Assembly: GCA_947468085.1 (NCBI GenBank)
Contig: CANIKY010000004.1
Span: 1 to 57,295 of the forward strand
DNA length: 57,295 bases
Source: Paracoccaceae bacterium
GTDB lineage: Bacteria > Pseudomonadota > Alphaproteobacteria > Rhodobacterales > Rhodobacteraceae
Direction of reading: 5' to 3'
The notes under the pieces: model-generated
The model's input: the letters and a program-made list of their open reading frames with translations, nothing else
Told to the model about the DNA's origin: nothing
The model's database searches: none
Part shown: positions 42,021-46,852 of the stretch, piece after piece
Position numbering within the stretch: the first letter of the stretch is position 1
Layout of the letters: each line of letters starts with the position of its first letter
Made by a program: the position numbers and the translations under genes

Positions 42021-44144
42021 ATGACCACCCGCGCTGACTGGGACGCCCTCGCCACCAAAGACCTTAAGGGCAAGTCGCCCGATACGCTGACATGGGCCAC
42101 GCTGGAAGGCATACCAGTCAAGCCGCTTTACACCGCCGAAGATACCGCCAACCTACCCCATATGGGCGGCTATCCCGGCCTTGCCCCTTTCACACGCGGC
42201 GTGCGCGCCACGATGTATGCGGGCCGTCCTTGGACGATCCGGCAATATGCGGGCTTTTCCACGGCCGAAGAATCCAACAACTTCTACCGCAAGGCTTTGG
42301 CTGCGGGCCAACAGGGCGTGTCCGTCGCCTTCGATCTGGCCACCCACCGTGGCTACGATTCCGATCATCCCCGCGTGGTGGGCGATGTGGGCAAGGCCGG
42401 TGTGGCGATAGACTCCGTCGAGGATATGAAGATCCTGTTTGATGGCATCCCCTTGGACAAAGTCTCTGTCTCCATGACGATGAACGGCGCTGTGATCCCG
42501 ATCCTCGCCAATTTCATCGTCGCAGGCGAAGAGCAGGGCGTGGCCCGCGCCGCCCTGTCAGGCACGATCCAAAACGACATCCTCAAAGAATTTATGGTGC
42601 GCAACACCTATATCTACCCGCCCGAACCCTCGATGCGGATCGTGGCTGACATTATCGAGTACACCGCCCGCGAAATGCCCAAGTTCAATTCGATTTCGAT
42701 TTCCGGCTACCATATGCAGGAAGCGGGCGCGAATTTGGTGCAGGAACTGGGCTTTACCCTTGCTGATGGGCGCGAATATGTCCGCACGGCCTTGGCACGC
42801 GGCATGAATGTTGACGATTTTGCCCCCCGCCTGTCGTTCTTTTTCGCCATCGGCATGAACTTCTTCATGGAGGCCGCCAAGCTTCGCGCCGCCCGCCTGC
42901 TATGGCACCGCATCATGGCCGAATTTGGCGCGCAAAAGCCCGAAAGCTTGATGCTGCGCACGCATTGCCAAACCTCTGGCGTGTCTTTGCAGGAAAAAGA
43001 TCCCTATAACAACGTGATCCGCACGGCTTATGAGGCCATGTCGGCGGTTCTCGGCGGTACGCAATCGCTGCACACCAATTCCTTTGACGAGGCGATGGCC
43101 TTGCCTACCGAGGCGTCAGCCCGCATCGCGCGCAATACGCAACTGATCTTGCAAGAAGAAACGGGCATCACCCATGTGGCTGATCCGCTGGCGGGCAGCT
43201 ATTATGTCGAAACCCTCACCGCCCAGTTGGCCGAAGAGGCGTGGAAGCTGATCGAACAGGTGGAATCTTTGGGCGGTATGACCAAGGCTGTTGCCTCGGG
43301 CATGCCCAAACTGCGCATTGAAGAAAGTGCCGCGCGCCGCCAATCGCTGATTGATCGCGGCTCCGATGTGATTGTGGGCGTCAACAAATACCAGCCCGAA
43401 ACCGACACGCCGGTGGATATCCTGTCGATCGACAACATCGCCGTGCGCGACAGTCAGATCGCCCGCCTTCACACCACCCGCGCTGCCCGAAATGAAGCCG
43501 CAGCCCAAGCCGCCCTGCAAGCCTTGGAGGCCGCCGCGCGTTCCGACGGCAACCTGCTCGATGCCGCCATCCTCGCCGCCCGCGCCCGCGCTACGGTTGG
43601 AGAGATTTCGACCGCGATGGAAAACGTCTTCGGTCGCCACAGGGCTGAGGTCAAAACCCTCGCCGGTGTTTACGGCGCAGGCTACGACGGCGACGCGGGC
43701 TTTGAAGCCATCCAAGCCGATATCAACGCCTTTGAGGCCGAAGAAGGCCGCCGCCCGCGGATGCTGGTGGTCAAGATGGGCCAAGACGGCCACGACCGTG
43801 GGGCCAAGGTGATCGCCACAGCCTTTGCCGATATGGGCTTTGACGTCGATATGGGCCCGCTGTTTCAAACACCCGAAGAGGCGGCGCAAGACGCCATCGA
43901 CAATGATGTTCATGTCATCGGCATCTCGTCGCAAGCCGCAGGCCATATGACACTCGCGCCCAAACTGATCGAGGCGCTCGCCGCCAAAGGTGCCGGCGAC
44001 ATCCTTGTGATCTGCGGCGGCGTCATTCCTGCGCAGGATCATGCCTTCCTCAAATCCAAAGGTGTCAAAGCCATCTTCGGCCCGGGCACCCATATCCCCA
44101 AAGCCGCCGCCGAAATCCTCGCCCTGATCCGCGCCACGCGCTAA
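42021..44144 (+). CDS. mcm: Methylmalonyl-CoA mutase (single-chain)
   Basis: A 707-residue B12 enzyme converting (R)-methylmalonyl-CoA to succinyl-CoA. The N-terminal TIM barrel has [23 protein letters not shown] (substrate-binding Arg/Tyr) and [18 protein letters not shown]. The C-terminal cobalamin domain has the base-off motif [10 protein letters not shown], with Asp 589, His 591 and Gly 594. ATG 42021 with AAGGA 10 nt upstream. It completes propionyl-CoA assimilation with pccB/pccA; the epimerase gene is not in the window. Related ethylmalonyl-CoA mutase is the main alternative, but the context favours methylmalonyl-CoA. Confidence 0.95.
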
Positions 44145-44145
44145 C

Positions 44146-44203
44146 CCCTTCACCGAGGTGCAAATACTTCGCAGGGGTCCCGGGGGGGCGCGCAGCCCCC
44201 CGG
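44146..44203. repeat. Divergent copy D of the intergenic hairpin repeat
   Basis: CACCGAGGTGCAAATACTTC replaces the CATATGTGCCCAAATAT part, followed by GGGGGGC-GCGCA-GCCCCCC. It lies just after the mutase stop. A CACCGAGGTGCGAAAT piece recurs at 46385-46400. Confidence 0.55.
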
Positions 44204-44210
44204 CCTTGCC

Positions 44211-44250
44211 CAAGCAAAAGGCCCGCTGTCGCCAGCGGGCCTTTTGCTTG
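44211..44250. terminator. Strong bidirectional terminator between mutase and cuckoo-RNA array
   Basis: An 18-bp perfect stem with a 4-nt TCGC loop. The inner GC-rich part (GGCCCGCTG / CAGCGGGCC) is flanked by AAAA and TTTT, so it works in both directions. It ends the pcc/mutase operon from the left and the DUF1127–small RNA transcript from the right, 13 nt after the last CTCCTCCC hairpin. Confidence 0.9.
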
Positions 44251-44263
44251 GGGACGTAAAGGT

Positions 44264-44331
44264 GCGGCGACCTCGGGGAGGAGGTCGAAGTCGCCGCTGG
44301 TCCGGGGGCCTCAGGGAGGAGGAAAAGGCCC
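44264..44331 (-). ncRNA. Cuckoo-type small RNA unit 4 (CcsR4-like)
   Basis: Two hairpins read on the minus strand. First 44331-44306: stem GGGCCT/AGGCCC with CCTCCTCCC in a 14-nt loop. Second 44297-44264: a 12-bp stem with one G-U pair and the exact loop ACCTCCTCCC. The linker is 8 nt. The terminator begins 13 nt further on. In R. sphaeroides such RNAs are processed from the ccaF1 transcript and sequester SD-like partners. Confidence 0.8.
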
Positions 44332-44370
44332 GCGTACATCGTGAGCCGCGAAATCTTGCGACTGAATTTC

Positions 44371-44438
44371 GCGACGGAGCCCGGGGGAGGAGGTTGGGCA
44401 CCGTCGCACTTGGCCGTCACCCGGGGAGGAGGTCGGGT
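44371..44438 (-). ncRNA. Cuckoo-type small RNA unit 3 (CcsR3-like)
   Basis: Hairpin 44438-44419: stem ACCCG/CGGGT with the 10-nt loop ACCTCCTCCC. Hairpin 44407-44371: GCGACGG/CCGTCGC and GCCC/GGGC separated by one mismatch, with the same 10-mer in a 13-nt loop. Linker 11 nt. An extra hairpin, GCGAAAT/ATTTCGC at 44348-44372, follows and overlaps its base by 2 nt. Confidence 0.8.
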
Positions 44439-44454
44439 TTAGGCGAAGAAGAAA

Positions 44455-44520
44455 GCGGCACCCTCAGGGAGGAGGTTGAGGATGCCGCCGGTCCGATAGC
44501 CCGGGGGAGGAGGTCCGGGC
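44455..44520 (-). ncRNA. Cuckoo-type small RNA unit 2 (CcsR2-like)
   Basis: Hairpin 44520-44499: stem GCCCGG/CCGGGC, loop exactly ACCTCCTCCC. Hairpin 44488-44455: 12-bp stem GCGGCA-x-CCTCA, where x is a G-U pair only on the minus strand, and the same loop. Linker 10 nt. Confidence 0.8.
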
Positions 44521-44557
44521 CGCCGAAGTCTGGTCCGCTTGCGGACCTTGTAGAAAA

Positions 44558-44626
44558 GCGACGATGCCAGGGAGGAGAAAAGCACCGCCGCACTTGTCCA
44601 ATCACTTGCAGGGAGGAGGTTGCAAG
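44558..44626 (-). ncRNA. Cuckoo-type small RNA unit 1 (CcsR1-like)
   Basis: Hairpin 44626-44605: stem CTTGCA/TGCAAG, loop exactly ACCTCCTCCC, beginning 13 nt after the DUF1127 stop. Hairpin 44591-44558: ten-bp stem with two G-U pairs on the minus strand and CTCCTCCC in a 14-nt loop. Linker 13 nt. A motif-free hairpin GGTCCGC-TT-GCGGACC at 44532-44547 separates it from unit 2. Confidence 0.8.
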
Positions 44627-44638
44627 CTTAGGCCAAGA

Positions 44639-44854
44639 TTAAACTTTGTACGCCGCCTCGCGCGCCACATCGGCGATATTGCCACGGCTAAGGCCGAGAT
44701 CCGACAGGTCGCGGTCCGACAGGTGGCTTAGTTCAAAAACCGTCTGATTGTACACGCGGCGGCGTGCAATTGCGTCTTTCAATCCAACTGCCAAAGCGGC
44801 GAAGCGATCATAAAAGCTCACCTGCGCCGCACGGGTCGAAGTCATATATGCCAT
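44639..44854 (-). CDS. ccaF1: DUF1127 small protein, CcaF1-like
   Basis: A 71-residue protein with the C-terminal DUF1127 (YjiS-like) motif: LSHLSDRDLSDLGLSRGNI, preceded by RFAALAVGLKDAIARRRVYN. ATG 44854 has GAGG 6 nt upstream; an upstream GTG at 44866 is unlikely. It heads a minus-strand transcript that continues into the hairpin array. In R. sphaeroides the gene at this position (RSP_6037, CcaF1) encodes an RNA-binding DUF1127 protein involved in sRNA maturation and RNA turnover, and the transcript is stress-induced through RpoHI/RpoHII. The same role here is inferred from gene order and motif. Confidence 0.93.
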   Translation of the reverse strand: MAYMTSTRAAQVSFYDRFAALAVGLKDAIARRRVYNQTVFELSHLSDRDLSDLGLSRGNIADVAREAAYKV

Positions 44855-44929
44855 TTTTAGCCTCACATTTTTTCTATTACGCCGGACCTTTTCGTATCGA
44901 TCTCATCAGGTCTGACGCTGTTATGGCAA

Positions 44930-44958
44930 AGATGGGGCAAATGCTGCAGCTGCACAAT
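44930..44958 (-). promoter_or_regulatory. Sigma-32 (RpoH)-like promoter of the DUF1127–small RNA operon
   Basis: On the minus strand ATTGTGC, 15 nt, CCCATCT. The second half matches the heat-shock -10 consensus CCCATnT exactly; the first is a weak match to CTTGAAA, with TTG conserved. The start point would be about 70 nt before the gene. Inferred from motif and the known RpoH control of the orthologous operon. Confidence 0.5.
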
Positions 44959-45124
44959 AGGTTGATCCCTCAATGCCGCCATGCGCCCTGTGCATGGCTA
45001 GCTGTCAAAAAATGTTCATACTTATCAATATTCTCGCTTAATTTTTGAGCGTTTGGTCAAGACAGGCTTGCCCTTTGCCCCAAAGGGGAACACCTTGTAA
45101 AGGCCTTTGTCACAGGAGAATTTC

Positions 45125-46210: not shown

Positions 46211-46400
46211 ACCTGCGGCGGGGCAAAGCGGGGGGCAACTCTGCCCCCCGCACCCCCTGAGCCGAGAGGCCTTTTGGGCCTCCCGGACCCTCCAGAGGCG
46301 ATTGTGGCAAAGGGCACGGGCAGGGCTGCGGCCCTTTGGCCCGTTTTCTGGCTGATTCGCAGGAATTTTCCGGGAAAATGCCCCACCGAGGTGCGAAATG

Positions 46401-46419
46401 CCGCTAAAAAGCGGTTTTT
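46401..46419 (+). terminator. Rho-independent terminator downstream of mrp
   Basis: CCGCT-AAAA-AGCGG followed by TTTTT on the plus strand. The stem is short (5 bp) and lies 190 nt after the mrp stop. It probably separates mrp from the mraZ leader. Confidence 0.55.
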
Positions 46420-46852
46420 CAGCTAAAGGCGATTTGCGGTCAAAGCCTGCGCTGCCTAAATATAGAATTTAAGGTTAAAGTGACCACAATATATAGGAAC
46501 CTGAAGGGATCTGATCGCGAAGGTTTCTCTTTTTTACCAAATGTGGGGCACTTTCCCAATATTTCCCTTGAAATGGGGTTCAATCCCATCCATAACTAAT
46601 AACAAGAGACGGGCAGCACCTTAGGGCGGACGAAACGACCCAAAATAAAAGAGCCAGAGGCAGGTTCATCAGGCTCCCTTCTTGAAAGAAAAAACGAATC
46701 CGGCGCGCGGCGCGGCCTACGTCTCCCCAAGGCAGTGCGCGAAGTTGGACGCCCAGCGATGGGACAGACGGCGGACCTGGCAGTGGCAGCAGCAGGGTCC
46801 GCCGTATTTTGTTTTACGCCCAAGCATGGGCCAAATGGAGGCGCGTTGCGCC
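46420..46852 (+). promoter_or_regulatory. Long structured leader/promoter region of the mraZ cluster
   Basis: About 430 nt without a credible gene. The left part is A/T-rich and holds a TATATA at 46490-46495. Two TGGGG boxes at 46544 and 46574 are exactly 30 nt apart; MraZ is known to bind repeated TGGG boxes near its own promoter. The right part is GC-rich. ACGGCGGACC (46768-46777) and GGTCCGCCGT (46796-46805) form a 10-bp stem followed by ATTTTGTTTT, a terminator-like structure ending about 38 nt before the mraZ start. It may be an attenuator of the cluster or the 3' end of a separate small RNA. Confidence 0.5.

Follow-up and report, generated by a model that had tools for sequence, protein, structure and literature searches.

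The locus examined here raises the question of what kind of RNA a row of hairpins behind a small DUF1127 gene represents, how its transcription would be driven and which mRNAs it could address. It lies in a 57,295-nucleotide stretch of the genome of a Paracoccaceae bacterium (the window; assembly GCA_947468085.1, contig CANIKY010000004.1). An earlier note had read it as the ccaF1–CcsR1-4 "cuckoo" RNA operon of R. sphaeroides, present in another genome, and had placed it at 44264–44854. The name was correct: the array is a further member of the known ccaF1–CcsR/cuckoo RNA kind, as judged by the 71-aa DUF1127 gene, full-length CcsR1 matches on three hairpin pairs, open anti-Shine–Dalgarno (aSD) loops, a terminator and the same architecture in relatives. 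The coordinates were too narrow, since the minus-strand operon, consisting of a conserved promoter element, the DUF1127 gene, eight hairpins and a terminator, extends upstream to ~44985 and ends at 44209 (Table 1).

Table 1. Features of the operon from its upstream to its downstream end (positions in the window).
Feature	Position	Strand	Basis
Conserved promoter element, 42-bp	44942..44985	-	pattern in related genomes and profile
Box A CGCATGGCGGCATTG	44971-44985	-	part of the promoter element
Box B TTGTGCAGCTGCAGCA	44942-44957	-	part of the promoter element
Proposed core promoter	44929..44957	-	sequence and 44-row profile
Proposed -35 TTGTGC, then 17-nt spacer	44952-44957	-	
Proposed -10 CATCTT	44929-44934	-	
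Likely DUF1127 ribosome-binding site, GTGAGG	44861..44866	-	sequence
DUF1127 gene, 71 aa, CcaF1-like	44639..44854	-	Pfam PF06568
Hairpin 1 (pair 1, first), loop ACCTCCTCCC	44604..44627	-	folding and CcsR1 match
Hairpin 2 (pair 1, second), loop TTTCTCCTCCCT, GCGGCG outer arm	44558..44591	-	folding and CcsR1 match
Linker hairpin GGTCCG-CAAG-CGGACC, without aSD motif	44532..44547	-	folding; outside the CcsR1 matches
Hairpin 3 (pair 2, first), loop ACCTCCTCCC	44492..44527	-	folding and CcsR1 match
Hairpin 4 (pair 2, second), loop ACCTCCTCCC	44454..44489	-	folding and CcsR1 match
Hairpin 5 (pair 3, first), loop ACCTCCTCCC	44409..44448	-	folding
Hairpin 6 (pair 3, second), loop AACCTCCTCCCCC	44370..44408	-	folding
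Second linker hairpin, without aSD motif	44344..44363	-	folding
Hairpin 7 (pair 4, first), loop TTCCTCCTCCCT	44303..44334	-	folding and CcsR1 match
Hairpin 8 (pair 4, second), loop ACCTCCTCCC	44264..44297	-	folding and CcsR1 match
Intrinsic terminator, 20-bp stem	44209..44252	-	fold and sequence

Most of the anatomy given in the earlier note was borne out. The 71-aa ORF matches Pfam PF06568 (DUF1127) with an E value of 1.5e-11 (44.3 bits, cut-off 23.3), and eight minus-strand stem-loops were found at 44264–44627 both by reading the sequence and by folding. In the minimum-energy fold, CTCCTCCC is unpaired in all eight loops, as had been expected of exposed loops. The 10-mer ACCTCCTCCC occurs in six of the eight hairpins and is exactly the whole loop in five, and CCTCCTCCC is found in seven loops, the exception being hairpin 2 with TCTCCTCCC. 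The region 44200–44650 folds with -222.2 kcal/mol, compared with -162.0 (sd 5.8) for 100 dinucleotide shuffles, none of which was as low (z -10.4). The strong terminator claimed at the end of the array is a 20-bp hairpin with T-runs on either strand, and from its sequence it might act as well for the convergent, putatively methylmalonyl-CoA-mutase-like gene, which ends at 44144 on the plus strand. Across the genome (3.22 Mb, both strands) CTCCTCCC occurs 28 times, and the eight copies that cluster all fall in one 343-bp stretch of a single strand, which is the array. Opposite hairpin 4, on the plus strand at 44467–44484, GGGAGGAGGTTGAGGATG resembles a ribosome-binding site with a start codon; this is probably chance, as there is no 60-aa ORF behind it.

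The stems were said to differ throughout. This is true letter by letter, but second hairpins tend to share a GGCGGC, GCGGCG or GCGGTG outer arm, which was present in 105 of 172 unambiguous second hairpins and in 3 of 173 first hairpins of related arrays, among the matches listed. When the arms of 513 hairpins were compared, a stem's own arms had a median pairing score of 23.5 against 9.0 for arms swapped between genomes, which indicates that the stems are maintained by matching changes while they drift. The distances from motif to motif fall mainly into two groups, 35–54 nt and 60–74 nt, and this supports an arrangement in hairpin pairs. The linker picture in the note was incomplete, as the linkers after pairs 1 and 3 hold an extra small hairpin without the motif. 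Among the matches listed, 79 of 86 long linkers of related arrays (two of the 86 being from the window itself) are more stably folded than their own shuffled versions on average, so that long linkers tend toward a small GC-rich hairpin without an aSD motif. Since the first linker hairpin of the window lies outside the CcsR1 matches, such a hairpin is probably removed or has a part in processing.

The family was examined with Rfam models, as the earlier note had proposed along with the folding. At the gathering cut-off there were no matches in the window. At a lowered threshold, CcsR1 (RF02791) matched pair 4 (44259–44340; 52.0 bits, E 9.7e-12), pair 2 (44450–44530; 49.8 bits) and pair 1 (44553–44637; 40.2 bits). 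All 83 positions of the model are aligned in these three pairs, with E values from 9.7e-12 to 3e-8; the scores remain below the gathering cut-off of 65.3, and default annotation therefore misses the array. Pair 3 gave no CcsR1 match even at the lowered threshold, and the rhizobial model ar14 (RF02344) stayed below its gathering score (47.6 bits against 58.8). The family had thus been predicted correctly, and of the four two-hairpin RNAs that were claimed, pairs 1, 2 and 4 rest on homology to CcsR1 and the one from pair 3 on inference.

The anatomy, fold and homology of the locus, and the conservation of its array and promoter element, are observations. The best joint explanation, which takes in the processing, targets and regulator proposed below, is very probably that the locus is a ccaF1–CcsR-type (cuckoo RNA, CIN1) operon. 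Compared through the Rfam model and the published description, it shares with R. sphaeroides ccaF1–CcsR1-4 the 71-aa DUF1127 gene, two-hairpin RNAs, CCUCCUCCC loops and a terminator; it differs in scoring below the CcsR1 gathering cut-off and in the unmatched pair 3. The cuckoo RNA family and CIN1 locus, compared by its cited description, likewise has a DUF1127 gene and then CcsR-like RNAs; Reinkensmeier and Giegerich (2015) reportedly described this combination in alphaproteobacteria, and Billenkamp 2015, Reinkensmeier 2015 and Gruetzner 2021 are said to be the founding papers on these RNAs. The rhizobial alpha-r14/NfeR1 RNAs (RF02344), in the parts of their description that were available, also carry one aSD motif per loop on variable stems. 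In contrast to the window, most rhizobial arrays contain three or four motifs, and many lack a DUF1127 ORF immediately before them. In the available part of the R. sphaeroides account, CcaF1 has 71 aa, is co-transcribed with CcsR1-4, and RNase E takes part in processing (PMC10253847). The accessible portions of the published ccaF1–CcsR accounts mention neither an LsrB-like box nor linker hairpins.

To speak of "another genome" was correct but too modest. With a strict pattern, which asks for three motifs at suitable spacings, the array was detected in 241 of the 394 family genomes, and the reversed pattern in 17 rows. Among the 30 family loci returned (L128–L157), the DUF1127 ORF ends at most 50 nt from the first motif in 26, the others being L129, L135, L145 and L151. 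For further counts, 68 arrays with at least four motifs and a DUF1127 ORF within 80 nt were taken from the matches listed (L009–L157) and the window; eight of these are rhizobial. The pattern matches listed as L009–L127 include chance matches in non-alphaproteobacteria, and those rows were dropped; G077 and L041 probably stem from a single genome, and their array entered the counts once, under L041. Among the matches listed, 60 DUF1127-led arrays, that of the window being one, come from outside Rhizobiales; their number of motifs ranges from 4 to 26 with a median of 7.5, and eight is the commonest number (13/60). Flanking sequence was sufficient in 21 loci, including the window, and in 19 of these an Mrp-type P-loop motif lies upstream. 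A constant gene on the downstream side was considered and rejected, as mutase motifs within 3.5 kb downstream were found in the window only (1/21).

Several variants of the layout were observed. L137 (G165:C1, minus strand) has 26 CTCCTCCC motifs in near-identical repeats of ~140 nt, which reads as recent tandem growth of the same operon type. In L135/L192 (G092), L151/L205 (G128) and L129 (G112:C9), the array stands directly behind the promoter element and no DUF1127 gene was found between them. The genome of L129 also holds another promoter element with a DUF1127-like ORF and two motifs (L189, G112:C1:489638). In the window itself, ~640 nt (46211–46850, plus strand) separate the mrp-like gene from what is probably the start of an mraZ-like gene; according to the accessible part of the published work, R. 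sphaeroides makes the small RNA UpsM from the 5' UTR of this cluster.

Which mRNAs could such loops address? Outside the array, GGGAGGAG occurs at twenty sites, three of which lie 6 nt before the ATG of a long ORF. All three genes encode transporter substrate-binding proteins: L268 (site of L001), L379 (L259) and L385 (L264). Two further sites with an ATG 13–16 nt away, and some with TTG or GTG, were left uncounted. A widened search for GGGAGGA-N4-9-ATG gave 25 sites in this genome and 64 in a second genome from its genus. Of these 89 sites, 74 are followed by an ORF of 60 aa or more, and the other 15 were dropped. Substrate-binding proteins of ABC, TRAP and tripartite tricarboxylate transporters make up 34 of the 74 (11/20 here, 23/54 in the same-genus genome), each confirmed singly by Pfam, with L288 being weak (E 5e-6). 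As controls, AAAGGAGA gave 36 sites with 33 ORFs (three sites dropped) and one substrate-binding protein, and AAGGAGG, sampled at 30 of 64 sites, gave 25 ORFs (five sites dropped) and again one; for both controls the first 25 families were taken from the listing and the remainder judged from N-termini. The difference between 34/74 and 1/33 has a Fisher p of 3.6e-6, to be read with the fact that the two genomes are related and the rows therefore not independent. Among the other genes behind GGGAGGA are L343, a zinc alcohol dehydrogenase, and L337, a pyridine-nucleotide-disulphide oxidoreductase. By our reading these may be the glutathione-dependent formaldehyde enzyme and dihydrolipoyl dehydrogenase, which would fit the effects on C1 metabolism and pyruvate dehydrogenase that the available parts of the literature report for the CcsR system.

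The enrichment as proof of targeting by the array is weakened by four genomes (G045, G093, G101 and G326) in which the patterns detect neither array nor element. When 30 of their 180 GGGAGGA sites were sampled and five without a 60-aa ORF dropped, 12 of the 25 remaining ORFs were substrate-binding proteins, verified singly. As the enrichment is equally strong without a detected array, it cannot be credited to the array; the site preference is wider than the detected arrays. These four genomes could hold arrays that the pattern overlooks.

By analogy with the R. sphaeroides and S. meliloti systems, a scheme of transcription, processing and pairing in trans can be proposed. A single transcript would begin ~70 nt before the DUF1127 gene and stop at the 44209–44252 hairpin. 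It would be cleaved into the mRNA and as many as four two-hairpin RNAs, most likely by RNase E with the DUF1127 protein assisting, and the small linker hairpins would be left out of the mature RNAs. Each RNA would display two UCCUCC-bearing loops on stable stems, and these loops would pair with GGGAGGA(GGU) ribosome-binding sites and thereby block translation or speed up mRNA decay. The likely targets would be mRNAs of transporter substrate-binding proteins and of some central and C1 enzymes.

The promoter of this operon proved to be conserved. Upstream of the DUF1127 gene, related loci share TGCATRGCAGCATTG, ~10 nt and then ATTGTGCANNYGCAGCA, followed by a weaker -10-like block; in a 44-row profile, this weaker T/A-rich block lies ~20–28 nt from TTG. 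Among the 68 arrays from the matches listed (a count that takes in the eight rhizobial rows and two rows clipped by locus edges), the core of box A is found in 47, that of box B in 53 and both in 45, and in all 45 arrays with both the two boxes start 26 or 27 nt apart. Of the 394 family genomes, 216 contain the joint two-box pattern and none its reversed control. When loci were fetched by the element, CTCCTCCC followed within 900 nt downstream in 20 of 20 (one with a single motif and two with two), which ties the element to these arrays. By visual inspection, 18 of the 20 have a DUF1127-like ORF between the element and the motifs, the exceptions being L192 and L205.

Box A resembles a known regulator site. 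For Brucella melitensis, the VtlR motif is printed as CAATGCAGCCATGCA in the available part of a paper (PMC12595884), and the motif's reverse complement agrees with box A at 14 of 15 letters in the family consensus and 13 of 15 in the window. With up to two mismatches, box A occurs before 31 of 56 rhizobial arrays, a further likeness to the NfeR1 RNAs, compared with 0/56 for the reversed box and 18/791 for box A in other stretches of these loci. The available portion of a study on S. meliloti describes LsrB as indispensable for the activation of NfeR1, a cuckoo RNA (PMC10746234). This genome encodes an LsrB-like protein outside the window (G000:C24:35254-36054), the gene of which is cut by the contig end. 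It is 43% identical to the rhizobial LsrB query (E 4.4e-69, the next LysR protein having 3.2e-31), with 45/66 identical residues in the DNA-binding part and 66/191 in the remainder. In the reverse search, the lsrB gene beside AbcR was the best match in three of three rhizobial genomes (E 7.1e-69 to 9.1e-65, runners-up 1.6e-44 to 3.4e-42), so the two are reciprocal best matches. At E 1e-60, the regulator is present as a single copy in 384 of 394 family genomes and in 345 of the 347 good ones.

The regulator differs from rhizobial LsrB/VtlR in its neighbourhood and its cysteines. A TrxB motif beside the gene was found in none of 30 family loci (in G000 the downstream side lies beyond the contig end), a MurI motif was found in 21 of the 30, and the LsrB cysteines 146, 238 and 275 are absent. 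A tree of LysR proteins was saturated, with branch lengths up to 10 and one row left out for having too few columns. A 2025 paper, in its available part, calls LsrB unique to Rhizobiales from a tree of representative proteins (PMC11975290), and in the literature, as far as its texts were accessible, no link of LsrB or VtlR with either CcsR or Rhodobacterales was found. The idea of a coupled gain and loss of regulator and array was rejected, given their presence in 384 and 241 of 394 genomes, respectively. By analogy with the rhizobial system, it is proposed that an LsrB/VtlR-like LysR regulator controls the operon, with or beside RpoHI/RpoHII. In its fullest form the proposal is tentative, its odds a little below even: this near-universal single-copy regulator would drive ccaF1–CcsR through the two-box promoter and, together with the aSD-loop RNAs, would make up a single ancient alphaproteobacterial module, which rhizobia would share with NfeR1 and which would tune the translation of substrate-binding proteins with GGGAGGA sites.

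It is also possible, though somewhat less likely than not, that RpoHI/RpoHII-type sigma factors alone drive the operon, the 42-bp element being an extended promoter that no LysR protein reads. TTGTGC and the -10-like block with their 17-nt spacing do stand at the element, but box A lies further upstream, its end 13 nt from the proposed -35, and the GCAG of the spacer is fixed in 44 of 44 profile rows, with the following CA in 42 of 44. A sigma factor is not known to read that much. The likeness of box A to the Brucella VtlR motif and the similar box before the rhizobial arrays also speak against sigma factors alone. An RpoHI/RpoHII promoter is published for R. sphaeroides ccaF1–CcsR (2023; PMC10253847, available in part), and set against this is the proven role of LsrB as activator of NfeR1 in S. 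meliloti (PMC10746234, likewise available in part).

The array might instead serve mainly as a sponge, its loops titrating an RNA-binding protein, another small RNA or stray SD sequences. Many near-identical loops per transcript, eight here and 4 to 26 in the 60 related arrays from the matches listed, would suit such a role; nevertheless it is unlikely, as the array loops extend with CCC past a plain anti-SD sequence. In the available parts of the published work, moreover, NfeR1 silences ABC-transporter mRNAs with its aSD loops and pairs with a translation initiation region (PMC10746234), and FlhR is a CcsR target. Far less probable still is a REP-like or mobile hairpin element that merely stabilises a 3' end. 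Tandem hairpins between convergent genes, and recent tandem copies in at least one genome (G165, 26 motifs), would be expected of such an element, whereas a constant loop on stems that change with pairing kept, a Mrp-type gene upstream in nearly all testable loci (19/21) and a dedicated promoter element would not. Mobile or REP-like repeats were rejected on the further ground that this array is the only motif cluster in the genome, with none scattered elsewhere.

With the ccaF1–CcsR-type operon as the preferred reading, the array itself mostly extends a known family, and a clear CcsR member is seen to be overlooked by the default Rfam cut-off. The conserved element is a simple handle for finding such operons, including those without a DUF1127 gene. 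A direct question is thereby opened, namely whether the activator type of the rhizobial cuckoo RNAs is also active in Rhodobacterales, where the accessible literature credits RpoHI/RpoHII only.
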